64,000 nucleotides of DNA from a virus: IMG/VR virus record IMGVR_UViG_3300046642_000423, positions 1 to 64,000 of that record; one strand, written 5' to 3'. Below the pieces are notes generated by a model, which saw nothing but the letters and a program-made list of their open reading frames with translations, did not search any database and had not been told where the DNA came from. A program made the translations under genes and the position numbers. Shown here piece by piece: positions 6,601-57,459 of the stretch. How positions within the stretch are numbered: position 1 is the first letter of the stretch; each line of letters opens with the position of its first letter.

Positions 6601-7758
6601 TCGGGCGTATTGAATGCCAACGAAATCAGTGCGACCACAATCCCAGCAACCTCTACCGCCGATCAGGTTCTCCAGACGACTGCATCTGCGACTGGCGCAT
6701 GGAAATCTGTTCCTCTTTGCACAGACACTGGCGGACAGCACTTGAACTATGACACCTCCACGCATACCTGGTCCTGCGGAACGTCCGGCACATCTGGTCC
6801 ATCTGCGCTCTCCAGCATCACGGCGATGACCACCAATGCAACCATCAACAATGGTGACAATCCTCTGCGTTGGAATTGGGATGGAACGACCTCTGGGCGG
6901 GTAGGATTCCTTGTCTCTGAGAACATCGCATCGACCTCAGCCGGCACGCCAGTCTTATTTGCCGTCCGAGCCATCGCATCCTCAACCATGAATCCCTTTG
7001 AGGCGTCCTTCAATGGCTTGGGCGTGCGCATGAATACTTCCGGTGTGTTGCAAGCAGTCAGCACAGGCGGCATCGACTGGCCAGCGTTGCTCAACTACCC
7101 TTCTGCTTGTGTCAACCAGTTCATCCGTGCGCTGTCCGACACGCCGACCTGCGCTACGGTTAGTCTGACCGCCGATGTGTCAGGCATTCTCCCGCAAGCA
7201 AACGGTGGAACGAACACTGCGAACGCGCCGATCAAGCGTGCGTACTTCCAATTCGCAGGAAACAACGCGACCACGGTAGGCGCCGGCTGGGATCTCCCAG
7301 TGACCACTCCAATGGTCGCCACCTCCAAGATTGACGGAACGAATGGTACCGTTCAGGGCACGCTCAACGCCGCCGATGGCCAGATCGCCTACGCAACCTG
7401 GATCATCCCAGACGACTTCACCTCATTTAATTCGGCCAAGATTCGCTTTACTACGACCGATACCACGAACGGACACACGATCATCTTCAATATCGCGACA
7501 GCCTGTACCAACCCGAACGCTACTGTTACCGACACGCCGAATTATAACGTCGCCAACGCCTTCACCACCGTGACGATCGCTGGTGGGGCGGTGGCGAACG
7601 CGGCTTATTCGACCACAGCGGGCACAGTGACCGCGACAGGCTGCGCGGCAGGCTATATACTGCACATGAAATTGACGCGCGCGACGGATACTGCAACGGA
7701 TACAGCGGTTGCGCTCACCGGAGGACTCTTGTTGGCCTACAATGGATCATACCAGTGA
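3640..7758 (+). CDS. giant fibre/appendage protein with Sec signal peptide
   Basis: 1372 residues. Residues 1-23 form a textbook Sec signal peptide: MRR, a Leu-rich core and an AHA cleavage site before T24. The rest is Thr/Ser/Gly/Ala rich and beta-structured. It has a poly-Gly linker near residue 267-273, repeated GGTG segments (LGGTGLATLTAHALIAGNGT near 690-710; ANGGTN near 1190) and a SAGNLSPLFTSSVAT-type segment near 750 that is common in environmental phage fibre proteins. Tail fibre or virion appendage is the likely role, but a cytoplasmically assembled fibre would not need a signal peptide, so export is a real alternative. It ends by overlapping the next signal-peptide protein. Confidence 0.7.
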   Translation: MRRFLHLLWLLPLLLFSAAPAHATNEAAHGWCEDGNQQVILSGLMSTTLAQESFPQCTIYVYNHGGGLATIYSDENNTPLANPFTANTNGQWIFYANDGRYDVNMSGGTPIAFPGPVTISDITLGGSGGGSGVGRRVCIMRAGSDDGSALTNAQIAPQTIQCEITDDATVIEVDVTADGGTPTTIASRIRGGASVDLVSSTLTTGAVGALACSNATGSLGIDGTTTCAMTLQNTTLAAGDYLYTRTATAGGVAKVFTVSVVFTQAGGGGGGGGTGLTSIGLTMPSWLTVANSPLTSNGTLAVTPTAGQSSHLVIGTCNAATTFAPCLLVAADLPNTAVSPGSYTNANITVDAQGRLTAASNGASGGIGTPGMPTTSVQFNCAGAFCGDAAMIWDNTAKSLNLSNGSLGASEATLDLSGSGAGTSFQGFPAILAVRAPDENGPWGQVWTNEVYKASTGGAAGQFWELFINDAGDTFFQWGGGTGPGVSDQGIQFYHNGEVETGGPLQIDDLVNAANGAFGIALDPNGIGAFTFSEAFDSVHGVTPTLGIPSYATDPNTAGWGAGQKGREWFNSTGNVVKYWNGSSVQTLGTGASTPCTSTALSIQYNLAGAFACTPMTYTVGSTTLATNAITVDASLATSVKLPYLWIVNSSAPSAISGNSICYATTTNINCSINGGGFNAINIGVTPVTLGGTGLATLTAHALIAGNGTSAVTVLGTGTLNDCLLSAGAGADPAFGACPGSGTITSFSAGNLSPLFTSSVATATTTPALTFALTSAAGGTVFGRSAGTTGAPAYTSTPVLGIPTSVIGTLGFAGNTSGTATITPQAAAGTPNLVLPILSGTFAVSATAPVTLNTTTGDIGCATCFRTDANGTSGAFVYTFAAATSIVPMRVAAGATVAANGQMAFDTTNNNLHFYNGNDRVVAVFDGTAQVNGGCLQATVAASKVEVTNTGVNCNGAGSVAFSALTSSTNTTATMHVGTGATLDTSGSGVLNANEISATTIPATSTADQVLQTTASATGAWKSVPLCTDTGGQHLNYDTSTHTWSCGTSGTSGPSALSSITAMTTNATINNGDNPLRWNWDGTTSGRVGFLVSENIASTSAGTPVLFAVRAIASSTMNPFEASFNGLGVRMNTSGVLQAVSTGGIDWPALLNYPSACVNQFIRALSDTPTCATVSLTADVSGILPQANGGTNTANAPIKRAYFQFAGNNATTVGAGWDLPVTTPMVATSKIDGTNGTVQGTLNAADGQIAYATWIIPDDFTSFNSAKIRFTTTDTTNGHTIIFNIATACTNPNATVTDTPNYNVANAFTTVTIAGGAVANAAYSTTAGTVTATGCAAGYILHMKLTRATDTATDTAVALTGGLLLAYNGSYQ

Positions 7759-9317
7759 AACGGATAATTCTGATTTCACTGTTTCTGTTATGTGCATCGA
7801 GTGCTCATGCGACTACCTACTACTGGGCGCAGACGGCAGCCTCGCAGACCTGTAATGGCGGTACGCATACTACCGTCACAACCTCCACGATTCTCTCGAC
7901 CACGCTGGCTCCAGATGATGTGGTGGTGCAGTGCGGAACGATAACTTTCTCTGCCAATGATTTTGCGTTTGCCTTCGGTCAGAGTGGAACGAGTGGGCAC
8001 GTCATTACACTTATGGGTGAATCTGGCGCGCATTTATTAACATCCCCTGCGTGGAATCCTAACGGTGCAATCAGTCTTGGCGGACGTTCATTTGTTCGCG
8101 TTACAAACATGAATCTCACTGCGACAGCGAATGGCAGCGGATTAGCCAATCAGCTCAACTCGATGGGCATTCAGATGTCGGGAGCAAGTGATTACGAGAT
8201 TGATCACAACTCAATCACGCATCTCTATGATCACACGTCCACGACGGACGTGACTCCTGACGTGCAAGTTGCCGGATGCTTATATGCAAACGGCGTAGGC
8301 AACAATATTCTCATTCACGACAATACTCTCAGCGATGGCCCATGGTGCATCAATCTGCAATTCAGCGCGCCTGCATCTAACTTACAAATCTACAACAACG
8401 ATATTTCTCGTGTGCCTCATGCCATCGTCTTAGGAGGCACAAGCAGCTCTCCAGGTGGAGCGCTATCCAACGTCAAAATTTACGGCAATTATGTGCATGA
8501 CAATGGGAATTGGGGAACGACCACGGGCAGTTATCACATCGCGGGATTCCACTTCTATGGAGTTCCTGGGAATACTTCCATCAGCGGGCTCCAAGTCTAT
8601 AATAATAAGTTTGATGGAACGTGGGGAAATGCGGCCTGCCCAACCGACCCTGGTAGTTGCATCACCGCATTCGTATTTGAGGAAGCAGGAACTTCCGAGG
8701 CAAGCATTTCAGGACAAGCATTCTTTAACAATCTCGGGATATCCGATGCGCCGATCAACAACGGTATCTTCGGCATCTACAGTGGTTCCGGCAGCATCAT
8801 CGTAAACAATACAATGATTTGCTCGACCACCACCACTGGGATATGTTTCGGGACCAACACAAATCTGACTGGATTGGTATTCCGAAACAACGTGATGACC
8901 ACAGCAAATCAGTTGATTCTGTCCGTCGCCACCTATGCATCGCTCTCTCCGAATAAAAATGTGTACGCTAATGGCGGTGGAAACGCCTTCGTCTGCAATG
9001 GGAATTTCTATACGTTCGGACAGTTCACAAACTGGAAGTCCTGTGTAGGTTCGGCTGGAGATGCATTATCGCTTGCTCCGGTCACAGCGACGCTGAGTTC
9101 AGTAGGAGTTCCACAGACTGGCTCCGTAGCTATCGGCCTGGGAGATAATCTGACATCTACCTACTGTGGAACGTATGCAGCGATGTGTTCGGATATCAAT
9201 GGCAGCGCGCGTCCGTCAGGTTCCACTGCATGGGATTCTGGGGCACTTAATTCAGGTGGTGCGCCGCCGCCGACGCCAGCGCCGCCAACAGGATTGCACG
9301 TCATCTCGATTCAATAG
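7755..9317 (+). CDS. right-handed beta-helix protein with Sec signal peptide
   Basis: 520 residues. Signal peptide MKRIILISLFLLCASSAHA with predicted cleavage before T20. Residues ~95-400 hold parallel beta-helix repeats of the pectate-lyase/tailspike type, recognisable from recurring YEIDHNSITH, ILIHDNTLSD, LQIYNNDISR and VKIYGNYVHD strand turns. The C-terminus has a Pro-rich stretch (PPPTPAPP) near 503-510. Beta helices of this kind in phages are usually tailspike depolymerases or fibre modules; catalytic residues cannot be assigned by eye. Overlaps the upstream fibre gene by 4 bases, so the two are probably made together. Confidence 0.75.
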   Translation: MKRIILISLFLLCASSAHATTYYWAQTAASQTCNGGTHTTVTTSTILSTTLAPDDVVVQCGTITFSANDFAFAFGQSGTSGHVITLMGESGAHLLTSPAWNPNGAISLGGRSFVRVTNMNLTATANGSGLANQLNSMGIQMSGASDYEIDHNSITHLYDHTSTTDVTPDVQVAGCLYANGVGNNILIHDNTLSDGPWCINLQFSAPASNLQIYNNDISRVPHAIVLGGTSSSPGGALSNVKIYGNYVHDNGNWGTTTGSYHIAGFHFYGVPGNTSISGLQVYNNKFDGTWGNAACPTDPGSCITAFVFEEAGTSEASISGQAFFNNLGISDAPINNGIFGIYSGSGSIIVNNTMICSTTTTGICFGTNTNLTGLVFRNNVMTTANQLILSVATYASLSPNKNVYANGGGNAFVCNGNFYTFGQFTNWKSCVGSAGDALSLAPVTATLSSVGVPQTGSVAIGLGDNLTSTYCGTYAAMCSDINGSARPSGSTAWDSGALNSGGAPPPTPAPPTGLHVISIQ

Positions 9318-16055: not shown

Positions 16056-16502
16056 ATGGCAAACACAGTTTTGCAAGACCGCAATGGACCGGATTGGCCG
16101 CTGGGGTTTATCAACGTCGTAACTCCCGGTACGCCGGTGAATATTATGTCGCTGGTGGACGCGACGAACGTGAACGACCCGGCGACGGCGACTCCGGGTA
16201 CGGCTGGCGCGAATGAGTACACTCCGCGCGCCTATCAAATCAATTTCACTGGAGTTCGCCTCGGCGCCTCGCACGGCCTGCGCGATAACCAAGCCAATGC
16301 GTACGTGGTCAGGTTCGCAGCGAAGGGCGCAGGGTCGGGGAACTATGACGATCCGGGCGTGATTGTCGCAGTCATCAAACCAGGACAGACATTCGTGCTG
16401 ACCGCCGCTGCGCTCAATCGCAATGTGTTCTCGCCGTATCGATATTACATCGATGCAGATACGGCTTCGGATGGCGCACTGGTAACTATGTTGATCCAGT
16501 GA
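16056..16502 (+). CDS. beta-rich virion protein, copy A of a paralogous pair
   Basis: 148 residues, AAGGAGAT before ATG. Shares with the protein at 50838-51275 the N-terminal block [21 protein letters not shown], a central EYTPR segment, and the C-terminus D-A-DG-LVTM-IQ. Both follow a short structural gene. Probably a beta-sandwich decoration or fibre-attachment protein that has been duplicated between the tail and head regions; function not known. Confidence 0.7.
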   Translation: MANTVLQDRNGPDWPLGFINVVTPGTPVNIMSLVDATNVNDPATATPGTAGANEYTPRAYQINFTGVRLGASHGLRDNQANAYVVRFAAKGAGSGNYDDPGVIVAVIKPGQTFVLTAAALNRNVFSPYRYYIDADTASDGALVTMLIQ

Positions 16503-18097
16503 GACGATTCCTTCTCATCCTCGGATTGGTTGGACTGTATGCGCTGCCTGTCAGTGCGAGCTATCCATATCTTCCCATCGTGCAGACTTCCGTTGGACGT
16601 ACTACCTGTATATTTCCTAACAATGTAACCAGTGGGGACATCATCATCGTGTCCACGAGTTGGGAGACGGCTACAAGTGCACCATCCTACACGGACACGC
16701 TCAGCACAATGTACGTGCAGAAGGCATTCGATGTATCGCACTCAGTGCGTATTGCTGTTTATGGTGGAGTTGCTACGTCAGGTGGAGCTGACACAATCAC
16801 CTTTACCTTAGCGACCTCTGGATTTGTTCAAACACAATGCTCGGAGTATCGCCCAACCGACCTTACGCTTACCGTGGACGATTCCAATGTGACGGCGTTT
16901 ATTGCGCCCGTGACAATCAGCACAGGAAATCTGACGACCACTCGCAACGATGATTTCATCTACACGCATGCAGGTGGATTCCAAACCAATGGAAGTTTCG
17001 TGGTGCATGCGCCGGACATTCAGACGGGAATGAATAACCTTTCGGACTCAGCTGCATCGGCAATGAAGTTCGCAGGCGCTCCCGGTGTATATACAACCAC
17101 CTGGGATAGCTCAGTCAATGCGCAGGCTACGCTGGCAGCGGTAGCTTTCCAATCGCCTAGCGGGATAGTAATCCGTAGTCCGACGACGCTGCCGGATGGC
17201 TCGCTTACCAATGCCTATAACTATTGCCTGCGTGCGACGGGTGGAGTGAGCACCTACACATGGTCGATCACCGCAGGTGGATTGCAGAGTGGGCTGTCGC
17301 TCAATACGAGCACAGGCTGCATCACAGGCACGCCAACGGCTGGGCCAGTCAATACAATCACGTTCCATGTGACTGACGGAACAAATACGGCCAATCTGAC
17401 CACGAGCTTGAAGGTAAGCCTAACGCCGAATACTCCCACGCTCATTCAATCCAAGACCTATGGATCATCTGGTACATCGGTCACGTTTACCTCGAATGTC
17501 ACCTCGGGAAGCATGCTCACGGTGACACGCGGGCCGATTGACGCTGGCACGATCGCGGTATGCACCGATACCCTTGGTACAGTATTTCAGATCGTTACGG
17601 CTGCCTACACCTACGCGCAGGTTGGCGGTGGAGGATCATTCGCCGCGCAGACTTGGGTCTACACGGGTACGGCACCGTCGAGTGGTGCTGACACGATAAA
17701 CTGCGATGTGAACATGCAATACATTGCGGAATGGTCTGGCGTGCAATCGTTCGGCAACGATAACATTCTGAACACGACTGGCTCGGGGCTCGTGTCTCCA
17801 GCTACGTCGAATCCCATGACGACACTGGTCCCTGGCGAGCTGATCTATGGGACCAACGCTAGCGATACATCGGGACAACACTTTCTGATTCAATCGCCTT
17901 ACACTGCGCTGGGAACGTCCACCACGGGCAGCCTGAACGATGGATATAAGCTCTCTCCGACCGTCACAACGAACACGGTGACGTTTACCATGTCTGGACC
18001 GGGAACATTTCTATGGTCGCTGCTGATGGTGGGATTCCGGCCGAGTGGTGGCGCGCCCGCACCGGGGGCGGTTAAGCACGCAGCACAGGAGTATTGA
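16499..18097 (+). CDS. Ig-like/beta-sandwich protein with Sec signal peptide
   Basis: 532 residues, GTG start overlapping the upstream TGA. Signal peptide MRRFLLILGLVGLYALPVSA. Residues ~25-215 and ~320-520 are related beta-sandwich modules (each carrying a -SG--TI----T-G---W--TG-A-SGAD-I pattern). Between them, residues ~222-300 match a putative-Ig (He_PIG) domain: LPDGSLTNAYNYCLRATGG ... GLSLNTSTGCITGTPTAG. He_PIG domains occur in surface adhesins. Together with 3640 and 7755 this is a third exported-looking, adhesin-like protein in the tail region. Confidence 0.7.
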   Translation: MRRFLLILGLVGLYALPVSASYPYLPIVQTSVGRTTCIFPNNVTSGDIIIVSTSWETATSAPSYTDTLSTMYVQKAFDVSHSVRIAVYGGVATSGGADTITFTLATSGFVQTQCSEYRPTDLTLTVDDSNVTAFIAPVTISTGNLTTTRNDDFIYTHAGGFQTNGSFVVHAPDIQTGMNNLSDSAASAMKFAGAPGVYTTTWDSSVNAQATLAAVAFQSPSGIVIRSPTTLPDGSLTNAYNYCLRATGGVSTYTWSITAGGLQSGLSLNTSTGCITGTPTAGPVNTITFHVTDGTNTANLTTSLKVSLTPNTPTLIQSKTYGSSGTSVTFTSNVTSGSMLTVTRGPIDAGTIAVCTDTLGTVFQIVTAAYTYAQVGGGGSFAAQTWVYTGTAPSSGADTINCDVNMQYIAEWSGVQSFGNDNILNTTGSGLVSPATSNPMTTLVPGELIYGTNASDTSGQHFLIQSPYTALGTSTTGSLNDGYKLSPTVTTNTVTFTMSGPGTFLWSLLMVGFRPSGGAPAPGAVKHAAQEY

Positions 18098-21297: not shown

Positions 21298-22742
21298 TGC
21301 CACAAGCTACCACGGATGATCTGTCGGATCTGGGAGCGAAGCCTTCGGTTAGTGATGATCTTTCGGATCTTGGAGCAGTTGAGTCCGCTGCGTCATCCAA
21401 ACCTCCCGGCACTCCTGGTGCGTTTCAGGCTCGTCCAGGTGGTCCTGTACTAAATTCCAATGATCTAGGCACGACGCCTATCCAGTACGACACGATGGGT
21501 GCGGCGGTGTCAGGTGCGAAGGCTCGCGCTGCAATGCCTGACTTTCCATCTCAAGTAAAATCTGCCAAGAATAACGAAGCTGGATTCCTCCCAGGGATTG
21601 GCGCGACTGTTGGTGGGACTGTTGGCGGCCCTGGCGGTGCAGGTATGGGTGCAGCCGCCGGAGTACTCGGAAAGCCTTTCTTGACAGATGAGCCAGCCAA
21701 TCTAAACGAGGCCGCTACGACTGGATTGGAATACGCTGCGGCACAAAAGGGCGGCGATCTGGCTGTGCAAGGGATTGGCAAGGGACTTGGCTGGATGATT
21801 GGTCCCAAAATTCAGAGTGCAGTAGAAGGAATCTTCCGCGCAGTCCCATCAGAGAATCCCAACTATCGGGATAACGTAGTCGCAGCACTTGGGGATCTTC
21901 AAAACATGGTTAAGAGTGGTGCGATTCCTGAACGTACCAAAGGTGGAATCCTAAATCCTGAGATGTACTTTCGACAGGTCAATGAAGCGATTGACCAGCG
22001 CTTGAAGGATATGTTCAATAACGAGTATATGGGTCAGATTAACATTGCCAAGAAGGCAGGCGCACAGATTGGTTTGACTGAAAATCCGCAAGTCATGCAG
22101 CAAGCGCTTAAGTATATCGCACGAACACAGACGGCTGATTCTGGCGCCCGCGCAGCAGCTCTTAAATTAGCGGGAAATCCTACCGCGCAGGTTCCTATTG
22201 AGGATGCTGCGGAACTTGCACGAGCAGTCAATGCACATCTACGAGAGTTGTCGGCAGCGCGGCCGGAGGCAGCATATGTGTCCGCGCAGAAGTCTGCTAC
22301 TAAGGCAAGTCTGCAACGACTAGATAGCGCTCTCAGTGACAGTATAAATGGAAAACTACAATCGCTAGATCAACCAGGTGTTGCCGGATACGAACGTCGT
22401 TATGCAGCTCTGTCAGCAATCAATCGGCAAATAGAAAGTGGAATGAACTCGCTTGAACGTCAGCGATTAGAGATTCGCCCTCGTGCTGGAGTCAGTTTGA
22501 AAGGTAGAGGATGGGCATCTGGAGTAGCCAATATATTCAAGGGGAATGCTGGTGCAGACCTTGAAGATGCATTACTCGCACTTAAGAACTCGCCAGATAT
22601 TCCTACCCCAGTAGCGGGTCCGAGAGTTGTCCTTCAAGGACAATATGCTGGACAGGCAGGCGCGCCTAGTTCCTCACCTGCAATAGTCAAACAGATTCCA
22701 CGAACACCTGTATGGGCACAGTTGCCGCCGCCTAAACCATGA
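21297..22742 (+). CDS. putative internal virion protein with Gly-rich hydrophobic segments
   Basis: 481 residues, TAATG overlap with the preceding gene. Two copies of DDLSDLGA at residues 7-14 and 20-27, a Gly/Ala-rich hydrophobic segment (GIGATVGGTVGGPGGAGMGAAAG, in parts, near 98-122), then long helices. Gly/Ala-rich segments that can insert into membranes are a feature of ejection proteins. The repeated acidic N-terminal octapeptide may be a binding peptide for another virion protein. Both points are inference. Confidence 0.45.
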   Translation: MPQATTDDLSDLGAKPSVSDDLSDLGAVESAASSKPPGTPGAFQARPGGPVLNSNDLGTTPIQYDTMGAAVSGAKARAAMPDFPSQVKSAKNNEAGFLPGIGATVGGTVGGPGGAGMGAAAGVLGKPFLTDEPANLNEAATTGLEYAAAQKGGDLAVQGIGKGLGWMIGPKIQSAVEGIFRAVPSENPNYRDNVVAALGDLQNMVKSGAIPERTKGGILNPEMYFRQVNEAIDQRLKDMFNNEYMGQINIAKKAGAQIGLTENPQVMQQALKYIARTQTADSGARAAALKLAGNPTAQVPIEDAAELARAVNAHLRELSAARPEAAYVSAQKSATKASLQRLDSALSDSINGKLQSLDQPGVAGYERRYAALSAINRQIESGMNSLERQRLEIRPRAGVSLKGRGWASGVANIFKGNAGADLEDALLALKNSPDIPTPVAGPRVVLQGQYAGQAGAPSSSPAIVKQIPRTPVWAQLPPPKP

Positions 22743-23734
22743 TCCTCTCCGCGACGGCGCTCACGCACTTTCAAGATTGCCGCCGCCGTCACCTCATCGA
22801 ATTAGATTGGTATGCCCATCATCATCGTCCAAAGACGCTATTCGATCGGCTCCTCTCTCGTGCCATCTATAAGCTATCGAATGGCGGAGATCCGGTAGCG
22901 GAAGCTGACGAAGCGCGCACGCAGTTCCTTGAGGCTGCGGCTAACCCCGGCCTCGATCAGCCGTATGGAACGAATACCTATCAGGTAGCGAAGGATTGGT
23001 GCGCGATGCTGGAGACGATACCGCGCGCGGTTGCAACGTTGGTGCTGCTTACGGTCAAGCCGGCGGGAGTGGTCTTTCTGGATGATCTGACCTCGTGGCA
23101 GACAACCTCATGGATGGACGATTCAGGCACGCTACATCGCTGGATTACCGTGGACAAATGGAATGAGGATGCGCTGGCACGGGAGATGCACGGCTGGCAT
23201 GCGTTTGGGGATATGGCGGTGCTGCGGGCGCCGATGATGCTGCATGTCATAGAGATTGGGCAGATGCGCAAGGGTAGGCGTGCAAGCCAGTGGGCCCGGG
23301 GCTGGCGGCATCCCAGTGTGGCGAATATCCACGGCGTGCATTTCAAGCATAAGGACGGCTCGTCCTATCAAAAGTGGACGCCACTGTATTTGGCTGACGC
23401 AGGAGATATCACCCCAGAAGATTGGGTTGAGGCGATGATCAGAGATAGGGTAATCGATGACGTCGTGCATCATGTGACGGTGAATGCGCCTAGTGATGCC
23501 GTGTGTGAGGATACCGTGCGGCAGATGTTGGCTGAGGCACGGCGCATGCGGGCGATGGAGAGGGAAGGGTACGACTGGACGGAGATACCCATGTCCCGCG
23601 GCGCCTGTGACGGACTAGTACCCTGCATCTGGCAGGATGCTTGTTATGCCGTGGGCGCATCGAAAGTCGTTGATTTAATTACCATTGGCCTGTATACACG
23701 TAAGGAGAATGTTGTAGAAGGAGTTAAGGTTTGA
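22739..23734 (+). CDS. Cas4/RecB-like Fe-S PD-(D/E)XK protein with altered active site
   Basis: 331 residues; ATGA overlap upstream. It opens with [20 protein letters not shown], the first-helix-and-Cys signature of Cas4/AddB-type nucleases, and near the C-terminus has C-x(6)-C-x(5)-C ([15 protein letters not shown]). Together these are the four cysteines expected for a 4Fe-4S cluster. The catalytic D...E-x-K strands are not evident: the best candidate is [15 protein letters not shown], which lacks the D and the proper E-x-K. Unlike the intact homologue at 36658, it lies among virion genes, suggesting a structural or DNA-end-binding role. Confidence 0.6.
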
Positions 23735-24258
23735 GACGCTCATTTGAGTTGGCAACTCTAGCTCTTATATTAGCTCTTATATATACCCTTCCAGTCTCCG
23801 CCCAGCATGCGGTGAATATCGGCTGGACACTGGGAGTGCAGCCTAGCGGGATCACCACGACTGGACAGAAGGTGCGCCGAGATGGGGTCGTGCTGGCCAC
23901 TGTAGCCGCTAACACCGCAGTGTACTCGGATCCCAATGTGATTGCTGGCAGCACGTATGTGTATACCGTGGTGGCGGTCACAACGGCCGGGGATAGCATA
24001 CCTAGCAATGCAGTCAGTGCGACGGTGCCGAGTGGAACGGTGGGACCGCCTGGGCCTCCAGGGCCACAGGGGCCAGCTGGGCCAACGGGTCCTACCGGCG
24101 CTACCGGAGCGACGGGTGCCACGGGAGCACAAGGTCCGATCGGTCCGCAAGGTCCTATTGGCGCTACCGGGGCGACTGGTCCTCAAGGTCCGGCTGGAAC
24201 GATGGTCTGCGTGAAGACTGACGCAACGCATTGCAAGATTACGATAACGATCCAGTGA
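23731..24258 (+). CDS. FN3 plus collagen-like repeat protein with signal peptide
   Basis: 175 residues, TTG start with GGAG upstream and TTGA overlap. Signal peptide [24 protein letters not shown]. Residues ~26-100 look like one fibronectin type III domain (VNIGWTLG ... [18 protein letters not shown]). Residues ~103-155 are uninterrupted Gly-X-Y collagen triplets ([16 protein letters not shown]...). The C-terminal cap has two Cys. It probably forms a trimeric rod. Fourth Sec-signal protein of the window; surface display or fibre role. Confidence 0.75.
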
Positions 24259-24266
24259 ACTAAGCG

Positions 24267-24287
24267 GCAGCCGCCATCCTCGGCTGC
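24267..24287 (+). terminator. hairpin between fibre and lysis modules
   Basis: Perfect 7-bp stem (GCAGCCG / CGGCTGC) with a 7-base loop, directly after the collagen-like gene and followed by a pyrimidine-rich TCTCATCT stretch. The U tract is weak, so it may be a partial terminator or a processing/stability element separating structural from lysis transcripts. Confidence 0.45.
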
Positions 24288-24316
24288 TCTCATCTACGTG
24301 AACACGGAGGATGGTA

Positions 24317-24745
24317 ATGGATATCAGCAATGTGGCGATGACCCAGTTCACGTCGTCTGCGGTCGTTGTATTTCTGATGCAGAAGCTCAAATCCGCCAAG
24401 TGGTTTCCTCTCGTAGAACAAGGTCGCGCTACCCTCAATCGAGTTGTCAGCATCGTCGCTGCTGCTGCTGTGTCGCTTGGGATCGAGTGGTCTTGGACGA
24501 AGGACGCATCTACCGGGACTCATACTCTTATCATTATGAACATTGGCATTTGGACTTTGCTGCATGGCGGGTGGCACTGGCTCAACCAGTACGCTTTACA
24601 GGAGACGGTGTATCAGGCAACTACGAATAAGCCGGGAATTGTGTCAGCAGCGATCGCTGGTCCTTCCATTCCCGCGCGGGTCGATGCTTCTGGCAATGTT
24701 GTCGTTCCACAAGCTGCCTTGGGTGAATCTAATAAGGGCGGGTAA
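24317..24745 (+). CDS. holin-like membrane protein
   Basis: 142 residues from ATG 24317; GGAGG ends six bases before it, so the in-frame ATG at 24311 is too close to the ribosome site. Hydrophobic stretches near residues 8-25, 43-60 and 70-90 indicate two or three membrane helices, with a soluble C-terminus. It is the first gene of the lysis module and has holin-like size and topology. Holin identity is inferred from topology and the nearby endolysin. Confidence 0.6.
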   Translation: MDISNVAMTQFTSSAVVVFLMQKLKSAKWFPLVEQGRATLNRVVSIVAAAAVSLGIEWSWTKDASTGTHTLIIMNIGIWTLLHGGWHWLNQYALQETVYQATTNKPGIVSAAIAGPSIPARVDASGNVVVPQAALGESNKGG

Positions 24746-24785
24746 GCTGGCCCAAATATTGCCCTCAGAATGGTGGCGATGAGCC

Positions 24786-24974
24786 TTGAATCAGAACGCC
24801 CTAAAAAGGAACCCGGAGGACGAATTGAAGGAGATGGAAAGGATACTGGAGGGGAAGAATACCGAAGCGAGCCGTCAGCTATTAGAGCTGTTCCATACGA
24901 TCTACGACAAGATCACATTTCTCCAGCAACGATCAGACTCCAGAATCCTTTCCGAAAAGCCGGGCAGCGATTAG
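24786..24974 (+). CDS. small charged helical protein
   Basis: 62 residues from TTG 24786. Highly charged amphipathic helix pattern (EDELKEMERILEGKNTEASRQLLELF). It competes with an overlapping frame from 24770 whose N-terminal ~68 residues are Arg/Pro/Ser-rich and look non-coding; this frame has the better composition. TAG overlaps the GTG of the next gene by one base. Possibly a regulator of the following membrane protein. Confidence 0.5.
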   Translation: MNQNALKRNPEDELKEMERILEGKNTEASRQLLELFHTIYDKITFLQQRSDSRILSEKPGSD

Positions 24975-25249
24975 TGTCCGATCCAACACAGATTCAGGAG
25001 CTTTACTGGTTGTCCAGAAGGCTCGATGAAGTCATTGATCTAGTGGCACAGCTTTCACTCGACGTTGAGGAGATTAAGCGGGATCGCGCAGTGGAGAAGG
25101 CAGCCGATACGTTTAAAGAGGAGACGTTGCAGGGCGGCAAGCGTCGCTGGGAGTGGATTGAGCGTGCCGTGCTGGGCATGGCGCTGGGCGCGGTCGGCTG
25201 GATCTTACGTGAGATTATTGGGCCCATTCTGACGCATCTTAGGAGATAA
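24974..25249 (+). CDS. coiled-coil plus single-TM lysis-module protein
   Basis: 91 residues from GTG 24974. A heptad-like helix (RRLDEVIDLVAQLSLDVEEI, residues ~13-32) is followed by a transmembrane helix (AVLGMALGAVGWILREIIG, residues ~66-84). Coiled coil plus one membrane span near a holin resembles small phage holin/antiholin proteins. No specific family assigned. Confidence 0.55.
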   Translation: MSDPTQIQELYWLSRRLDEVIDLVAQLSLDVEEIKRDRAVEKAADTFKEETLQGGKRRWEWIERAVLGMALGAVGWILREIIGPILTHLRR

Positions 25250-25251
25250 AT

Positions 25252-25401
25252 TTGATCATCTTACTCATCGTTCTGATTCTTCTGATCGGTGGTGGAGGCT
25301 TAGGCTATACCAACTGGGGGCCGGGTGGTGGAGCGGGAGTAGTCGGAACCTTGCTCATCATCATTCTGATTCTTTACCTACTGGGAATGATTAGAGTATA
25401 A
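25252..25401 (+). CDS. DUF3309-like tiny membrane protein
   Basis: 49 residues from TTG 25252, with AGGAG six bases upstream; below the length cut-off of common callers. Two Leu/Ile-rich helices flank a Gly/Tyr/Trp turn (GGGGLGYTNWGPGGGAG). This layout matches the DUF3309 family of very small bacterial membrane proteins. Its placement in a phage lysis cassette suggests it helps permeabilise or condition the inner membrane; inference. Confidence 0.65.
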   Translation: MIILLIVLILLIGGGGLGYTNWGPGGGAGVVGTLLIIILILYLLGMIRV

Positions 25402-25410
25402 GGAGAATTC

Positions 25411-25596
25411 ATGTTCGCATTGTTACAGTTGACTGAACGCACAGGTGGTGGGGCTCCTCTCAATTTGATCTTTCGAGTATTTGCCCTAGTTCTATTTGCT
25501 ATCGCTGGATTCGGATGGCCTGCTCCAGTAGAACCATATCGTACCAAGCTAATTGGGTTGGGATTGTTCTTCTTAGTTCTGGCAAGTTTCTTCTAG
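25411..25596 (+). CDS. small membrane protein of the lysis module
   Basis: 61 residues, AAGGAG before ATG. Two hydrophobic helices (residues ~18-34 and ~47-60) joined by a short charged loop, ending at the membrane without a tail. Third of four adjacent small membrane proteins; one of them is likely the pinholin or antiholin, which cannot be decided here. Confidence 0.6.
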   Translation: MFALLQLTERTGGGAPLNLIFRVFALVLFAIAGFGWPAPVEPYRTKLIGLGLFFLVLASFF

Positions 25597-25600
25597 GAAT

Positions 25601-26053
25601 ATGTTCTTCGATCACAGGTACGAACGTAAGATCATTCAGCTACTCGAGGAGGAGGTTCGTCTCCTCAGACATATTGCTCATTGTGTTTGCAAGCATCGCG
25701 CAGTCTCGGCCACACTTAAATTCATCGATTCAAAAGGAGAACCCATGCCGGTCACAGTGCATTTGAACGAAGATCCTGGAGTAGCGGTATTCACTGAATT
25801 CAGCCTACCCAATGGACGGGGGATTGTCGTACCGCCAGTGGGGAAGGTAACGTATACGTCGGACAATCCAGCGGTGGCGACGGTTGATCCTGCCAGTGGA
25901 CAGCTAACGTATGTCGCGGCCGGCGTGGCCAACATTTCCGGCGCGGACGATGGGAACGGCCTGACCGCATCGGATTCGCTGACGGTGAGCGCGGTGACGG
26001 CTCAGAGCGCGACACTGGTTATCAACGTACCGACACCAACGCCAGTAGTATAA
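25601..26053 (+). CDS. bacterial Ig-like (BID_2) domain protein
   Basis: 150 residues from ATG 25601; the N-terminal ~40 residues are helical (IIQLLEEEVRLLRHIAHCV). Residues ~80-135 match a BID_2 Ig-like domain (VTYTSDNPAVATVDPASGQL ... SDSLTVSA). An internal ATG at 25745 (MPVTVHLNEDPG) has a much better AAGGAG, so two products, or a shorter real gene of 102 residues, are possible. BID_2 domains occur in phage virion and surface proteins. No signal peptide is visible. Confidence 0.65.
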   Translation: MFFDHRYERKIIQLLEEEVRLLRHIAHCVCKHRAVSATLKFIDSKGEPMPVTVHLNEDPGVAVFTEFSLPNGRGIVVPPVGKVTYTSDNPAVATVDPASGQLTYVAAGVANISGADDGNGLTASDSLTVSAVTAQSATLVINVPTPTPVV

Positions 26054-26064
26054 AAGGAGACTCA

Positions 26065-26460
26065 ATGAAGCGTTTATTGATAGCGCCAGTGCTGCTATGT
26101 GTGCTGGCGCTTACCGGATGTACCCCAGTTGAGCGTGATGCCTACGATATCATCGTGACCAGTAAAGCGGCTCTCGTTTCATTCCGCTCGCAGCATCCCG
26201 AGTGCATGTTCGATGCCACGAGTGGAATCAGCAAGGTGGTTACGGCGCAACCCTGTCTAGCGAATAACAAGCTCACCGCTGCCAAGGATACGTTGATTGA
26301 CGCGACCGAGGTCTACTGTTCCAGTCCTGCATTTGAATCAGGAGGCGCATGTACTCCGCCAGCCAAGGGCACGCCCGCGTTACAGCAGGCCACCGATAAA
26401 CTCAAGGCTGCTATTGCTAATTACAACCAGACCGCAGCGGACCTCAAGGGGGTAATTTAA
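26065..26460 (+). CDS. lipoprotein in lysis cassette
   Basis: 131 residues; AAAGGAG before ATG. Signal peptide MKRLLIAPVLLCVLALTGC with a lipobox (LTGC, lipidated Cys 19). The mature part is helical with paired Cys residues and a C-terminal helix. In Gram-negative phages an outer-membrane lipoprotein beside the endolysin may be an o-spanin, but this one is longer than Rz1-type proteins and is not nested in another gene. Superinfection exclusion is another option. Confidence 0.6.
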   Translation: MKRLLIAPVLLCVLALTGCTPVERDAYDIIVTSKAALVSFRSQHPECMFDATSGISKVVTAQPCLANNKLTAAKDTLIDATEVYCSSPAFESGGACTPPAKGTPALQQATDKLKAAIANYNQTAADLKGVI

Positions 26461-27120: not shown

Positions 27121-28197
27121 TTAGCCAGAACCTTCCCCATCTCTTTGAATCTCTTCACTATACCCACTGGGGGCCGCCACATCTGTGCTTCTTGGAGGAA
27201 CAGGTGGGCTATAAGTGACACCCCCAATGGATTCTTTAAGTAGATCGTCACGCATCAATCTTACCTGGGAAATAACCGCCCCCCTATCAACTTGGTTCGG
27301 AACGCAACATATTTGCATGGATTGCAACATATGAATTACGGAATCATATGCCCGCGCCCCGGCATCCTTCTCGCGCTGCGCCAACAGTTCGGTGGAGGAG
27401 GGGAGTGCGCGTAGACGATGATGTGCCTTATTGAAGAAGTTACAAACTCCGTCGTGATAGCCTTCCTCTTGATCCGCATTGATGCACGTATCTGGTGGAA
27501 TGGAAAAGTCGGATACTTCCTCTAGTACCCTACATACCGCCTCCCGCCACGCCGCTTCGCGTAGGGCGAGTTCTGCATCCACTTTCTCCTTAGATGTTGT
27601 GTCGGTGCGAGCCTTTACTACGTCAGCCCAATTTGTCGGACACATAGATAAATCAGCCGCCTCAGTTTCTAGTGGCTTTAGCGCCGTACTTATTTCCTCC
27701 ACGGCAGCGCCAAACTCTTTCATCCAACGGTCGTCGTCCCATTCGTAAGGCCCTCGACTCTCGCCAAGCCAATCACGCCCGTCGAGAACTTTCTTGATTG
27801 CGGTTACACCATCGGCAAGAATGCTACGGAACTTTTCGAGCGCCAACTCGTACGGCTTCCGTATCTCCGCGTCATGCTGCTCCACTAAGCTGGCGTCGCG
27901 AGGAATGGCGTGGATGGCTTGAGCAATCATAGAATAATTCGCAATTCTGTATACTGCTTCGCTGTTAATGGCTGGTTCAAGACAGGCAATCTTATCGTTT
28001 AATATTTTCTCTGCCGCTCCCAGCGCAATCCCCACGCGCAGGGCGAGTTCGCGGTCAAAGTCCGATTGGATGATTGGAAGAACAAAGTTTGTTAGTGCTA
28101 CGGCAGCCTTCCCGTCTTGCCAGAGTTTGAATGCTTCTGGTTGGTCTAGCGCATCAAGGATGCGTTCTACCAATGAATCCAGCTTCGGTTCGCTCAT
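27121..28197 (-). CDS. early protein of unknown function
   Basis: 358 residues; GGGAGG upstream of the ATG. Mainly helical, acidic, with scattered Cys (Cys near 194, 228, 245 and a CC pair near 308) but no clear metal-site spacing. No membrane helix or enzyme motif seen. Largest gene of the distal early block and last in transcription order, running toward the endolysin end. Confidence 0.6.
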   Translation of the reverse strand: MSEPKLDSLVERILDALDQPEAFKLWQDGKAAVALTNFVLPIIQSDFDRELALRVGIALGAAEKILNDKIACLEPAINSEAVYRIANYSMIAQAIHAIPRDASLVEQHDAEIRKPYELALEKFRSILADGVTAIKKVLDGRDWLGESRGPYEWDDDRWMKEFGAAVEEISTALKPLETEAADLSMCPTNWADVVKARTDTTSKEKVDAELALREAAWREAVCRVLEEVSDFSIPPDTCINADQEEGYHDGVCNFFNKAHHRLRALPSSTELLAQREKDAGARAYDSVIHMLQSMQICCVPNQVDRGAVISQVRLMRDDLLKESIGGVTYSPPVPPRSTDVAAPSGYSEEIQRDGEGSG

Positions 28198-29309: not shown

Positions 29310-29501
29310 TCATCGTCCTATTTCGCGTTTGGTTAGCGGGCGCATTCTGACTTCGTACTCCACGTGGTTCAAAGTATCGAACCATCGCTTGCCCTTTTCT
29401 TCTGCATTACCAATGTTCGTTTCCTTGACAAGTTTTACCGGATATTCAGAACTTTGGTCGCGCACCATGACTACTTGTCCTATTCTAAACTTGGTCTTCA
29501 T
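29310..29501 (-). CDS. small early protein, unknown
   Basis: 63 residues; ATGA overlap with the Acb2-like gene. Starts MKTKFRIGQVVMVRD, reminiscent of small SH3-like beta barrels (hydrophobic-G-hydrophobic at residues 8-12), then charged. Function unknown; co-translation with the Acb2-like protein is likely. Confidence 0.55.
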   Translation of the reverse strand: MKTKFRIGQVVMVRDQSSEYPVKLVKETNIGNAEEKGKRWFDTLNHVEYEVRMRPLTKREIGR

Positions 29502-29719
29502 GCTTGATTTTCCGGTACGTTTGCCATGCTCTTTTTGGCGAAGAAGCAGGCTTCCTCTAGTTTAGTTTTTACGATGGCCAACTCACGCCCTTGAGGGCAG
29601 AGCGATCCAAAAGTTGAAGATGTTATCGCCATCAAACAGTTGTCGAATGCCTGAGCAATATCATTGGCCTTCTGCTTGCCTGTCTCGTTCAACATATGAA
29701 CTTCAAATAGTGAGTCCAT
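29498..29719 (-). CDS. Acb2/Tad1-domain cyclic-nucleotide sponge candidate
   Basis: 73 residues, AAGGAGAT before ATG. The sequence follows the Acb2/Tad1 hairpin pattern: an N-terminal H-x(4)-E-x-G stretch, a helix, then CPQGRELAIVKTKLEEACFF and KKSMA. This corresponds to the family signature P-x-x-RE--L-LTKLEEA-FWANA-IA. Acb2 proteins of Pseudomonas and T4-like phages form oligomers that bind CBASS (and some Thoeris) signal nucleotides and so block abortive immunity. Identification is by motif reading only; residues in the last helix differ (KKS for NAA). Confidence 0.7.
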   Translation of the reverse strand: MDSLFEVHMLNETGKQKANDIAQAFDNCLMAITSSTFGSLCPQGRELAIVKTKLEEACFFAKKSMANVPENQA

Positions 29720-30230
29720 TTGTATCTCCTTTCAATTTGTACAGTATTGCTAAAAGTCCCAGTCCAGCCAACACTAGCCCAATCTCGCTTGGCTCGGGCG
29801 TGGAGACAGGCACATCCGGTGGATCAGTGACGATTAAACTCCCCGAACTCGCCGTGGCGCTGCCATTGGGAAAGTAGAATGCCCCGTTGTACTTCCACAG
29901 CTCAAACAACGCTCCCGTCGTCCACTCGCCCACCATATCGAATGCCGCGAATATGCCATGGTCATGCGGATAAAATTGTAGGTAGCCCAAGTCGCCTAGC
30001 CATGTGGCACGGGTAGGGCTAATAGATGCCAGCGTGAGTGCGCCTATGCCTGTGTCCTGTGTGGTCATGGTATCGGCTACAAGGCTCTCGGTGGTTACAT
30101 CCCAGTTGAAGGCCGTTTGGAAGGTGGCTTGATTGCCCCAGGCACCAGAGAGTTCAATGTGATTGATTTGATCGGCATGCGCGGCCGGCGCGAACATAAT
30201 GAGTAATGCAATAGACAATAGATATTTCAT
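29703..30230 (-). CDS. PEP-CTERM sorting-signal protein
   Basis: 175 residues, AAGGAG before ATG. Residues 1-19 are a signal peptide (MKYLLSIALLIMFAPAAHA). Residues ~20-140 are a Trp/Phe-rich beta domain resembling host PEP-CTERM cargo. The C-terminus carries TPEPSEIGLVLAGLGLLAI (Pro-Glu-Pro at 145-147), a hydrophobic helix, and a KLK basic stop. This is the tripartite signal recognised by exosortase in EPS-producing Gram-negative bacteria. It implies export and processing by host exosortase. The tail after the helix (about 12 residues) is longer than usual. Very unusual cargo for a lytic phage early region. Confidence 0.8.
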   Translation of the reverse strand: MKYLLSIALLIMFAPAAHADQINHIELSGAWGNQATFQTAFNWDVTTESLVADTMTTQDTGIGALTLASISPTRATWLGDLGYLQFYPHDHGIFAAFDMVGEWTTGALFELWKYNGAFYFPNGSATASSGSLIVTDPPDVPVSTPEPSEIGLVLAGLGLLAILYKLKGDTNGLTI

Positions 30231-30241
30231 ACGAATACTCC

Positions 30242-30499
30242 TTACTTTAAGTTATCCATATCTGGTTTCTTGGATTGCGTGGGACGGTTGCCGCGGATAC
30301 GCAACTCTTTCACGACCTCAACGATGCACTCAGAGCAGATGTCTAGATCATCAGACATGCCATCAAATCCTGGGATAAGATCATCCAACTTTTGCAATAA
30401 CTCTTCTCCACATTGTTCGATGATGGCCCCTTCTTCGGGTACACCTTCCTTGGTGTACATATACTTGTCACAAACATCGCAACATTTTCGCAGGCTCAT
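30242..30499 (-). CDS. small Cys-rich (zinc-binding?) early protein
   Basis: 85 residues from ATG 30499; the longer frame upstream is Arg/Ala-rich shadow sequence. N-terminal CCDVC at residues 6-10 and a later C-x2-C (CSEC) near residues 60-63 could form one zinc site. ATGA overlap with the next upstream gene. Function unknown. Confidence 0.6.
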   Translation of the reverse strand: MSLRKCCDVCDKYMYTKEGVPEEGAIIEQCGEELLQKLDDLIPGFDGMSDDLDICSECIVEVVKELRIRGNRPTQSKKPDMDNLK

Positions 30500-48323: not shown

Positions 48324-50549
48324 ATGTACGCCCTCAATAAAATAAGAGAGCGCATCCACGAAGCTGAACTCATCTACCAGCGTTCCTTCGAGCCTCACAC
48401 TCCCGCCGAGATCGACGACTTCGAACGTCACCTCGTTGCCTCGAACATGTACGTTTACGACTCTTACGGCAAGCCTACTTCCACGCAGAACCTCACCGAG
48501 TTTGAGTCGGACTGGATGCTCAATGAACAGGTCCTGATCCTGTGTGACGCATCCTACTTTCTCACCCGCTATGCTTTCCTCAAGGATGAAGAGAACATCA
48601 TCCACCGTTTCTCCTTCCGCGTTCCCCAGCACATCCTCTACGAAATCATCTGCGACCTTGAATCGCGCGATGCCGCCATCGAGATTATGATCCTCAAGGC
48701 GCGCCAGCTGGGCTGTTCTACCCTCATCGAACTCTTAATTGCTCATAGAGTAATCTTCTCCTACGGCATCAACGCCATCATCGGTAGCGCCGACCAAACA
48801 AAAACTGGCCTCATGGGCAACATGCTCTTCCTCGCCTACGACATGCTGCCACGATGGCTGCGCCCTGACTCGACGCGTCGAGTGGAATCCGACCGCGGCA
48901 TGTTGGTATTCGGCCACACCGCATCCGGCGTATCCTTCCAGCACGGTGCTCAGACTTCTGGCATTGCGCGCGGCACCACACCTACCATCTACCATCTCTC
49001 TGAATGCGCATCTTTCACCAATGCCGCACAGCAAATCGAAGCGTCTCTATTCAAGGCGGTTCACGCTTCTCCCAGCGTATTCGGCGTGCTTGAATCCACC
49101 GGCGAGGGTGACAAAGGCTGGTGGCCAGACACCTGGCGGCACGCCAAAGCCAACTGGTCAGACAATCGTTCGCGTCTCTGCCCTATCTTTCTGCCATGGT
49201 TCTGCGGCGTAGACATCTGGCCCACACCCACTTGGCGCCGCACTCATCCTGCTCCACCAAGTTGGCGTCCCACCAAGGAAACGCGCGAGCATGTCGCCAA
49301 GGCGGAACTCTACGTGCGTTCCAATCCCCTGCTTGAGCGCCATCTCATCAACCACCAGCGTGCCACCGGTGAACTCTCCACCGACAATAAATACCGCATG
49401 CCTTCCTATCAGCAATGGTTCTGGGAGGTCGATCACGAAGAACACAAGAACAAGGGTATCGAGTCTATTTTCCTACAAGAAATGGCAGGTGATGATGAAG
49501 AAGCGCTCCAACGCAGCAGTGAATCCGTCTTCGGACACGAGACGATCCAGTTACTCGACGACCATCGTATTCGAGACTACCGAGTATACGGTCTATCCGG
49601 CCAGTCCATTGAATCCGCTCACGAACCTCCCACGGACGACATTGATTATGATTTGGAGCGCATCCCCGTTCGCTACTCCTCCATGCGCGCAGAAACCTAC
49701 CGTTGGGAACTGATTCCACTGAGATTCTCGACTCCCTTAAATGAATCCGTTCCCGAGGATGCTTCCGGTAAGCTAATCGTCTTCCACCCACCCACTCCCG
49801 GCGTTACCTACTCCATTGGCGTGGACACATCGCAAGGCAAGGGTGCCGACTCCACGGTCATCTCCGTCTGGTCAGTCGGCGAGGGTACTCAGCAAGATCA
49901 GCAATGCGCTGAGTTCGCTTCTCCCTATGTGAACCACGTAGAAGCATTCTCCTTCATCCTCTGCATCGCTGCCTACTACGCTCAGTACATGGAGCAAGGT
50001 GTCACGCGTTGGAAAGAACCTCTGGTTTCGATCGAACAATTAGCCGCTGTAGGCGACACCGCACAGAATCAGATGAAACAAATGGGCTACAAGAACTTCA
50101 ATCGCTTCTCACGTTATGATGGTAAGAATCCCGCTAAAAGTAAGCGCATGGCGACCCGCAATGGCTGGTTCACTACTGCCTGGTCACGCCCACTTCTTCT
50201 TGTCAACTACATCACCTGCGCTAAAAACAACTGGTCGCAGATCAATTCTCCCTGGCTGATCAACGAAATGAAACATTTCGAGGTCCACGTGACCGCTACC
50301 GGCAAGGAAAAGCTCGAGCACGAGGAAGACGAGCACGATGACCGCATCTTCGCGGCCGCCATCGCCATTTTCTGCCCGCATGACATGGATAAACTCGCAT
50401 CGCGCTCTAATAACCGCCTAACCGAACTCGTCTCCGCCCCTCCTATAGACCTCTCACCCTATCGCGGCCAAGTCATCACCCAATCCCAACTCCGTAACTC
50501 CTCTGAACTCACCCTCAACGATCTCATTTACACAAATCGACGTCGGTGA
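48324..50549 (+). CDS. terL: terminase large subunit
   Basis: 741 residues. ATPase: adapted Walker [11 protein letters not shown] (125-134), Walker [11 protein letters not shown] (222-231). RNase H-like nuclease: [15 protein letters not shown] (Asp near 500) and a third acidic motif [10 protein letters not shown] near 671-680. Longer than the usual ~550-600 residues, with extra sequence between ATPase and nuclease (residues ~270-480). It threads DNA into proheads and cuts it. Anchors the packaging module: TerS upstream, portal and capsid genes 7-13 kb downstream with fibre and glycan genes between. Confidence 0.9.
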
Positions 50550-51279: not shown

Positions 51280-52722
51280 ATGGGCATAACCGACTACATC
51301 GCACCGGGCGGCAGCGGCGGCGGTGGAACGCAAGGTCCCCAGGGACCGCAGGGACCGCAGGGTACGAATGGTGCCGCTGGCGCGCAAGGACCGCAAGGCG
51401 TACAGGGAGTCCAAGGAGCAACTGGATCGACTGGTTCAACTGGACCTCAAGGGGCGCAAGGGTCCACGGGAGCCCAGGGTTCTACGGGCGCTCAGGGCGC
51501 AACGGGATCAACTGGCGCGCAGGGTGCTCAAGGTAGTACTGGCGCGCAGGGCGCAACGGGCGCTCAAGGTGCGACTGGTTCACAGGGGGCCACCGGAGCC
51601 CAAGGCGCTACAGGGGTGCAAGGTGCAACCGGAGCGCAAGGCAGCACAGGCGCTCAGGGCGTACAAGGCGCACAGGGCAGCCAAGGTTCTACCGGAGGAG
51701 TCTCGCTCCTCTATACCTTCAGCACTACAACCACCACACCAACTTCCAATAACGGTCAGATCCGCTTCAACAACGCAACTTTTGGCTCGATCACGCACGT
51801 CTATATCACCCGCCAAGATCGCAACACAAACGATCTCACTGCCACACTCGCGCTCATTGTAAACGGCACCACACTCGAAACATTCCAAGAATCCACGCCC
51901 GCGACTTTCGCAACTTTCAGCGTGACCGCAGCCTCGCAGCAAACCAACTACTACGATTACACTGTCACACCACTCTCGGGCGCGATTCTCACAAACAATG
52001 CGAACTCTGCCGCCAGCTTCTCCGCTACCGGTCCACAAGGAGCACAGGGAGCGACCGGCGCACAGGGAGTTCAAGGTGTGCAAGGTGTGCAGGGAGCAAC
52101 CGGTGCTCAGGGTGCGCAGGGGGCCCAAGGTGTGCAAGGACCACAAGCCGCCGGTAACGCAGGCGACACAAAAATCTCCGCCATGTCTTCTGGCTTACCG
52201 GGCACTCTTTCCGATCAACTCGTCATCGCGCGCAGCGGTTCCAACTTCAATCTTCCATCGGCGGCATTCTTCGTGCAAGGCGCTCAGTTCTCCGCCACCG
52301 CCACTACTCCCACTTCCATTCAAGGCTGCCAAACCACGGCCGTGCTCGCTGCATCTGCGACCTACCATTTCAATGCCATCATTGGCGTGCAAGGTGTGGG
52401 CATCCAAGGCTACCAGTGGGGATTCCAATGCACGCAATCCGGCGCCCACCAAGGCAGCGCCATGAACGTAAAAGTCAGCATGGGACCGCAAGGAACGGTT
52501 GCCGCCGCCACAGGATTCCAATCCTACTTAGCTGTTGGCTTTGGCATCCAAGGCGCGCAGGGCGGTGGTGCGGTCGGCAATAGCTGGATGGAATGTGATG
52601 GTGTCTTCACGACCAATACCGTCGCGGGCAGTGTATTCGGTATCCAGATCCAAGGGAAACAAGCCACCGTTACGCCCGCCATCCTCGCCAATTCCTATCT
52701 CAAAGTGGAGCGTATCGCATGA
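51280..52722 (+). CDS. collagen-like tail fibre protein
   Basis: 480 residues. Gly-X-Y arrays at ~13-138 ([10 protein letters not shown] ... GATGAQG) and ~250-292, separated by a beta domain ([18 protein letters not shown] near 167-185). The C-terminal ~150 residues are a beta-rich head ([15 protein letters not shown] and on). Trimeric collagen-like fibre of the kind found in phage receptor-binding fibres. No signal peptide. Repeats could be substrates for the nearby glycosyltransferases. Confidence 0.75.
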
Positions 52723-54472: not shown

Positions 54473-55019
54473 CATCCCTGGATGGATGAGCGAAAAAGAA
54501 CTCGCCTGGCTGGCTGACACTGCCAAGGGATATTTCTCTATTGTGGAAGTCGGCTCATGGCGTGGCCGCACAACGAAAGTTCTTGCCGACAACACGCGCG
54601 GGCATATCTTCGCCGTGGATACCTGGGACGACAATGCGATCGGATATGAAGACAGCTGGACCGTCGCTGACCGTGAACTCGAACTCTACTCGCGTCCTGA
54701 CTGGCTCTTGCAAGAGTTCCAATACAATTTGCGCGACCATCTCGGCGGCAAGCTCCTAGCGCTGCGCATGACTTCCAAGGCCGCAGCCAGCCTGCTCAAA
54801 TCGAACATGCTAACCTTCGACATGATCTTTCTCGATGCAGACCACTCTTACAACTCTGTGTGTGAGGACATTTTCACATGGCGACCTCTCCTGCGCCCGA
54901 CCGGACTCCTTTGTGGCCACGACTTCAACGATCCACGTTGCCCAGAAGTAGCCGCCGCGGTGCGCAGCCTTATCCCCGATGCACGAGTAGCCTGCGATAC
55001 GATTTGGTGTGCTCAGTGA
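54462..55019 (+). CDS. SAM methyltransferase, Methyltransf_24-like
   Basis: 185 residues from TTG 54462 (ATG 54486 is an alternative). Motif I VEVGSWRGRTT near 29-39, AVDTWDD near 52-58, then FDMIFLDADHSYNSVCEDI near 120-138. The D-A-D-H-S signature is shared with the methyltransferase at 2003. Overlaps the fibre gene and is coupled by GTGA to the glycosyltransferase fusion, so it probably acts on the same glycan. Confidence 0.7.
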   Translation: MSTSIPGWMSEKELAWLADTAKGYFSIVEVGSWRGRTTKVLADNTRGHIFAVDTWDDNAIGYEDSWTVADRELELYSRPDWLLQEFQYNLRDHLGGKLLALRMTSKAAASLLKSNMLTFDMIFLDADHSYNSVCEDIFTWRPLLRPTGLLCGHDFNDPRCPEVAAAVRSLIPDARVACDTIWCAQ

Positions 55020-57286: not shown

Positions 57287-57459
57287 TGTCGAAAGAAGAA
57301 CTCATTGAACTGATGAAATATCATCAACCTTTAGATGGTGGTTGTGGCGGCGAGAGTGGCGAGAGTGGCTGTCAATGTAACGCTAATTTATCTGAATATA
57401 CATGGCGCGGTTGGTGCGAACACATCCTTGAAGTTTTAGCAAACGGCAGGAGCGCCTGA
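57286..57459 (+). CDS. small Cys/Trp protein, possible zinc binding
   Basis: 57 residues, TAATG coupled. C-x(8)-C-x-C (CGGESGESGCQC near 20-31), then YTWRGWCEHILEVL. Cys-x-Cys plus W-x-x-H near the end is a pattern of small phage zinc proteins. Its TGA overlaps the portal ATG. Confidence 0.55.
   Translation: MSKEELIELMKYHQPLDGGCGGESGESGCQCNANLSEYTWRGWCEHILEVLANGRSA

Follow-up and report, generated by a model that had tools for sequence, protein, structure and literature searches.

PEP-CTERM proteins, the substrates of exosortase (EpsH), are known from bacteria and are thought to be linked to exopolysaccharide (Haft et al. 2006, PMC1569441). In the model put forward for their sorting, the signal peptide is cleaved, a C-terminal helix retains the protein and exosortase recognises the PEP motif at the membrane face, after which the protein is cleaved and passed outward (PMC1569441). 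The protein described here, encoded within a 64 000-nucleotide stretch of viral DNA (hereafter the window), resembles these substrates in having a signal peptide, an unrelated passenger domain and a C-terminal arrangement of PEP, hydrophobic helix and basic residues, but it is encoded by a soil phage, and no exosortase genes were found in the phages searched, which points to reliance on an exosortase of the host. Each part needed by the exosortase model is present in the phage proteins. Surface-acting exclusion proteins of phages, such as T5 Llp, are lipoproteins. Like them, the window protein is a small exported phage protein, with an envelope location predicted from its signal peptide and C-terminal helix; unlike them, it is proposed to follow the exosortase route.

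The gene lies at 29703–30230 as an open reading frame of 175 aa starting with ATG, and an AAGGAG ribosome-binding site (30238–30243) precedes the start codon by 7 bases. The first-pass annotation had proposed a PEP-CTERM protein here; the reading frame is real, albeit on the minus strand, as are all features of this locus. The four parts of the anatomy proposed for it (signal peptide, body, PEP, and helix with basic end) could all be located. Residues 1–20 (30171–30230) form a Sec signal peptide with n-region, hydrophobic core and A-x-A motif (MKYLLSIALLIMFAPAAHA, followed by Asp at the predicted cleavage site), called by simple hydrophobicity rules and not by SignalP. The mature domain (residues 21–144, 29799–30170) has an acidic and aromatic body, with five Trp, no Cys and only two Lys or Arg among 122 residues. 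It is followed by the PEP motif (residues 145–147, 29790–29798) and a hydrophobic helix with lysines (IGLVLAGLGLLAILYKLK, residues 150–167, 29730–29783), such that the C-terminus runs from TPEP through a hydrophobic stretch to YKLK, the basic tail past the helix consisting of just two lysines. Structure prediction gave pLDDT values too low for use, both for this protein (family A, 44) and for a second family described below (family B, 43).

The PEP-CTERM gene is flanked by phage genes. The gene just downstream (29498–29719, minus strand) overlaps its stop codon and has a homologue, 62% identical, in a related genome (G005), while the final gene of the minus-strand block (27121–28197) has a homologue that is also near the PEP-CTERM gene in a second phage (see below). 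The same block includes genes for RusA and an exonuclease, and the earlier description of it as an early operon is thus reasonable, whereas we found no support for calling the neighbours anti-host genes. The setting amid replication genes points to expression before lysis, which would fit a surface change during infection.

Matches to the PEP-CTERM profiles are mixed for the window copy. TIGR02595 scores 17.5 bits at 29748–29801 in a profile search of the genome (cut-off 16), in keeping with the original assignment, but 14.0 bits, below the cut-off, when the ORF is analysed by hmmscan; PF07589 reaches 17.6 bits against a cut-off of 20.7. On its own, the window copy is therefore a borderline match, and the case is decided by its homologue and kin. 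The homologue, at locus L003, exceeds the TIGR02595 cut-off (16.5 bits), and with PF07589 it scores 21.3 bits in the profile search of its genome, above the cut-off, and 18.0 bits by hmmscan. The FxDxF PEP-CTERM model NF038126 matches the window protein weakly over the whole length, at 16.9 bits where the cut-off is 50, and gives 17.1 bits for the L003 protein. No match to TIGR02595 occurred in any of 14 control genomes.

Beyond the window, only two loci encoding this protein were found. One (L002) represents the same phage in an independent assembly, 99.995% identical across 19.66 kb that include the gene. The other, L003, encodes an 82% homologue on a 44-kb contig (G002) that shares with the window phage no more than some tail-locus and accessory genes. 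Terminase, portal and capsid genes are not among these, although the G002 contig may be incomplete, and the PEP-CTERM gene has therefore probably moved between unlike phages. At the gene, the DNA of the two phages can be aligned over 29791–30167, almost exactly the mature domain. Across residues 21–144, DNA identity is 86% and protein identity 93% (dN 0.057, dS 0.64, ratio 0.089), and purifying selection acts on the mature domain. DNA identity falls to 52% over residues 1–20 and to 46% over residues 145–165; even so, both ends keep their form, a signal peptide with A-x-A at one and TPEP, helix and basic residues at the other (TPEPSEIGLVLAGLGLLAILYKLK in the window protein, TPEPAEIAMICVGLLGLAAWRKR in L003), the helix differing in sequence. 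The two sorting signals appear to have been swapped, or to have diverged, with their kind retained; we infer that a swap would have taken place at the domain borders. No homologue of the window protein was found among isolated phages, plasmids or solved structures, nor in a genome collection scanned with two short patterns only.

To place the gene in its phage group, we used 27 related viral contigs gathered by a capsid scan. TIGR02595 exceeds its cut-off in three of these (G022, G027 and G029) and matches weakly in a fourth (G025). The first three have in common a second family of PEP-CTERM proteins (family B; 190–207 aa, 48–65% identical), whose mature domain shows no similarity to that of family A. 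The protein of G025 (family C) may be distantly related to the window protein, the similarity of the mature domains being weak (7 of 500 shuffles were equally good). A motif scan requiring a signal peptide, P-x-P, a helix and a basic tail picked out six strict PEP cases when run on roughly 0.9 Mb of genuine phage sequence (window, L003, G022, G025, G027 and G029), and none besides these in sixteen genomes or large fragments. Since Markov-simulated sequence gave two hits in 4.39 Mb, the PEP-CTERM anatomy is not due to chance. Among near-complete genomes of the group, the window's included, four of ten carry such a protein (G000, G025, G027 and G029); it is absent from the other six and is thus not essential. 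In the accessory operon, family B is located close to the start and families A and C close to the far end, for which reason the families look like separate acquisitions. Directly after the family C gene of G025, a further gene (L067:11068–11682) encodes a protein with a twin-arginine-like signal at its start (NRREFTGHLAMGAFVATA), and two exported proteins may therefore be co-expressed. An apparent tie between PEP-CTERM carriage and a secreted beta-helix-like gene cluster was dropped, as the clustering was loose and a similar protein is found in a non-carrier (G026).

The tag is also present in a cultured phage. In a control set of ten phages, TIGR02595 gave two matches, both in Tunturi_5 (PP885688), a 309-kb jumbo myovirus of Tunturiibacter (Acidobacteriota), and none in lambda, N4, T4, Tunturi_1–4, a Vibrio phage or a spring podovirus. 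The two proteins, gp179 (125878–126516, 23.1 bits, containing TPEPGSLVLLGTGLFGAAGMAYRRAK) and gp97 (75107–75703, 22.1 bits, ending in TPEPSTWMLLGTGLIGTIKLAVRKIRA), are both annotated as hypothetical, and the main text of the Tunturi_5 paper makes no mention of PEP-CTERM or exosortase. Like the window protein they are phage-encoded, about 200 aa long, with a signal peptide-like start, a clear PEP-CTERM end and a setting among replication genes (exonuclease, helicase and recombinase genes around gp179, helicase genes beside gp97); they differ from it in their passenger domains, in belonging to a jumbo myovirus and in having a known Acidobacteriota host. Relatives of gp179 are encoded on three long contigs (30% identity, E ~4e-21). 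A strict TPEP-x4-LLGxGL pattern retrieved 45 stretches in viral contigs (L126–L170), about 40 of which are soon followed by a stop codon and have basic residues. Several protein families, including one termed family D, recur across different contigs of this set; a terminase-like gene was found in 10 of the 23 records tested, and some of the contigs may be prophages or contain host sequence. A tblastn search of phages with a generic PEP-CTERM peptide, a short query of low complexity, returned no match, and the two proteins of Tunturi_5 indicate that this search was not sensitive. No papers on phage-encoded PEP-CTERM proteins were found in a full-text search of the open-access literature. Exosortase/PEP-CTERM surface sorting thus appears not to have been linked to phages before, and the recurrence of the tag suggests that phages use the pathway.

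The window phage itself has matches among isolates from the same host genus. Its TerL (48324–50549), portal (57459–59561) and major capsid protein (61432–62691) are about 31–32% identical to those of Tunturi_1 and Tunturi_2, isolated podoviruses of Tunturiibacter psychrotolerans (Acidobacteriota) (PMC11924767). Among isolated phages, these two are the sole matches for the capsid and the only ones to match most of the length of the terminase. Acidobacteriota are accordingly our best guess for the host; a capsid query of the genome collection gave no host match, and no tRNA genes pointing to a host were found. A tyrosine recombinase was detected in none of 14 records searched and a serine recombinase or resolvase in none of 17, from which a lytic life is likely for the window phage.

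Other genes of these phages are also predicted to encode exported or surface-related products. Sec signal peptides start large proteins of the tail-fibre locus in this group and in Tunturi_1 (gp12, gp13, gp14 and gp17). By the same simple rules, they occur in 32 of 177 tail-locus proteins of at least 150 aa, compared with 10 of 254 proteins elsewhere and 23 of 2334 internal Met positions; those in the window are at 3640–7758, 7755–9317 and 16499–18097 (plus strand). Since the cytoplasm is the usual folding site of phage tail proteins, signal peptides are unexpected here: either these proteins are secreted, or export extends to part of the virion. The pattern suggests that phages of this group export proteins as a general habit. 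The protein encoded at 54878–56788 (plus strand, 636 aa) combines domains of a family 2 glycosyltransferase (PF00535) and a methyltransferase and is possibly a further surface-modifying product; a tail fibre protein with a collagen repeat (PF01391) is encoded at 51280–52722 (plus strand). In G027, the protein at 21930–26324 (L080:1930–6324) has an internal signal-peptide-like stretch and C-terminal Ig-like ASH domains; AFPGAQGGGAASVGGRGG, following the signal-like stretch, presumably resembles pectate lyase.

Homology to the PEP-CTERM models, purifying selection, unrelated passenger families and the two Tunturi_5 cases together bear out the first-pass annotation in its central claim, that the phage encodes a putative exosortase-type substrate, and the window protein is very probably a genuine sorting-tagged phage protein. 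We consider it rather probable that the gene is a 'moron', an accessory gene whose exported product acts at the host surface, being sorted there by the host exosortase and altering the surface of the infected cell. An unlikely alternative is an ordinary inner-membrane protein with a periplasmic domain that acts without exosortase, for instance by keeping out the DNA of a second phage or by tuning lysis. Whatever the host, a protein with a signal peptide and a C-terminal helix would adopt this topology, the basic tail is weak and convergent lysis genes are nearby; however, a plain membrane anchor needs no PEP, and the motif is retained although the surrounding helix changes, and recurs on unrelated passenger domains. 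It is less probable still that the gene was captured from a host and brings the phage no benefit. Certain environmental bacteria have PEP-CTERM proteins in abundance, and presence across relatives is patchy, but selection has preserved the protein across two unlike phages, the pattern scans found no close bacterial homologue, and families B and D are repeatedly present in several phages. Slightly further down the scale, the protein might be a decoy that occupies the host exosortase, so that fewer of the host's own PEP-CTERM proteins are displayed. That the tag is the sole feature common to unrelated passengers fits such a role, yet a decoy does not need the strongly conserved mature domain, and this conservation argues instead for a function of the domain displayed. 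Finally, a chance ORF, or host DNA misjoined to a phage contig, would account for the scores below cut-off in some searches, but is largely refuted, and highly improbable, given the near-identical copy in a second assembly, the homologue in a different phage, the phage genes on both flanks and the rarity of hits in simulated sequence.

We thus favour a sorted surface protein, in the following sequence of events. The PEP-CTERM product would be made from the minus-strand replication and accessory operon, and exported by the Sec system of the host, with the PEP-CTERM helix keeping it in the inner membrane. An exosortase of the host would then recognise it, cleave it at the PEP motif and pass it on to the cell surface or the polysaccharide matrix, thereby altering the surface of the infected cell. 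Processing by a host exosortase during infection seems a somewhat better than even prospect; the exosortase in the host, the cleavage and the surface location are inferred steps, as is any exclusion role. The part in exclusion or biofilm change suggested by the first-pass annotation is plausible. The likeliest gain would be that further virions fail to adsorb, or that progeny do not bind to infected cells or debris. Exclusion of further virions accordingly comes first among the candidate roles, ahead of aggregation or matrix change and of periplasmic action without exosortase, though superinfection exclusion, while the likeliest single role, is itself doubtful.

More broadly, and tentatively, lytic phages of exosortase-bearing soil bacteria might have, as a standard accessory module, a shifting set of exosortase-tagged surface proteins, with the tag swapped between unrelated passengers and the matrix-protein sorting of the host employed to remodel or protect the surface of the infected cell. 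Were this true, the module would be a Gram-negative counterpart to sortase-anchored phage surface proteins. The idea can be put directly to the test with Tunturi_5 and its cultured host, and a 24-residue model could allow other 'hypothetical' phage genes to be re-annotated. Proteins of the PEP-CTERM type are common among certain bacteria of soils, sediments and biofilms, and for most of them the function is not known. Should phages draw on the pathway, their genes would offer small, selected substrates for the study of exosortase, and the matrix and surface of the infected cell would enter the contest between phage and host in soils.
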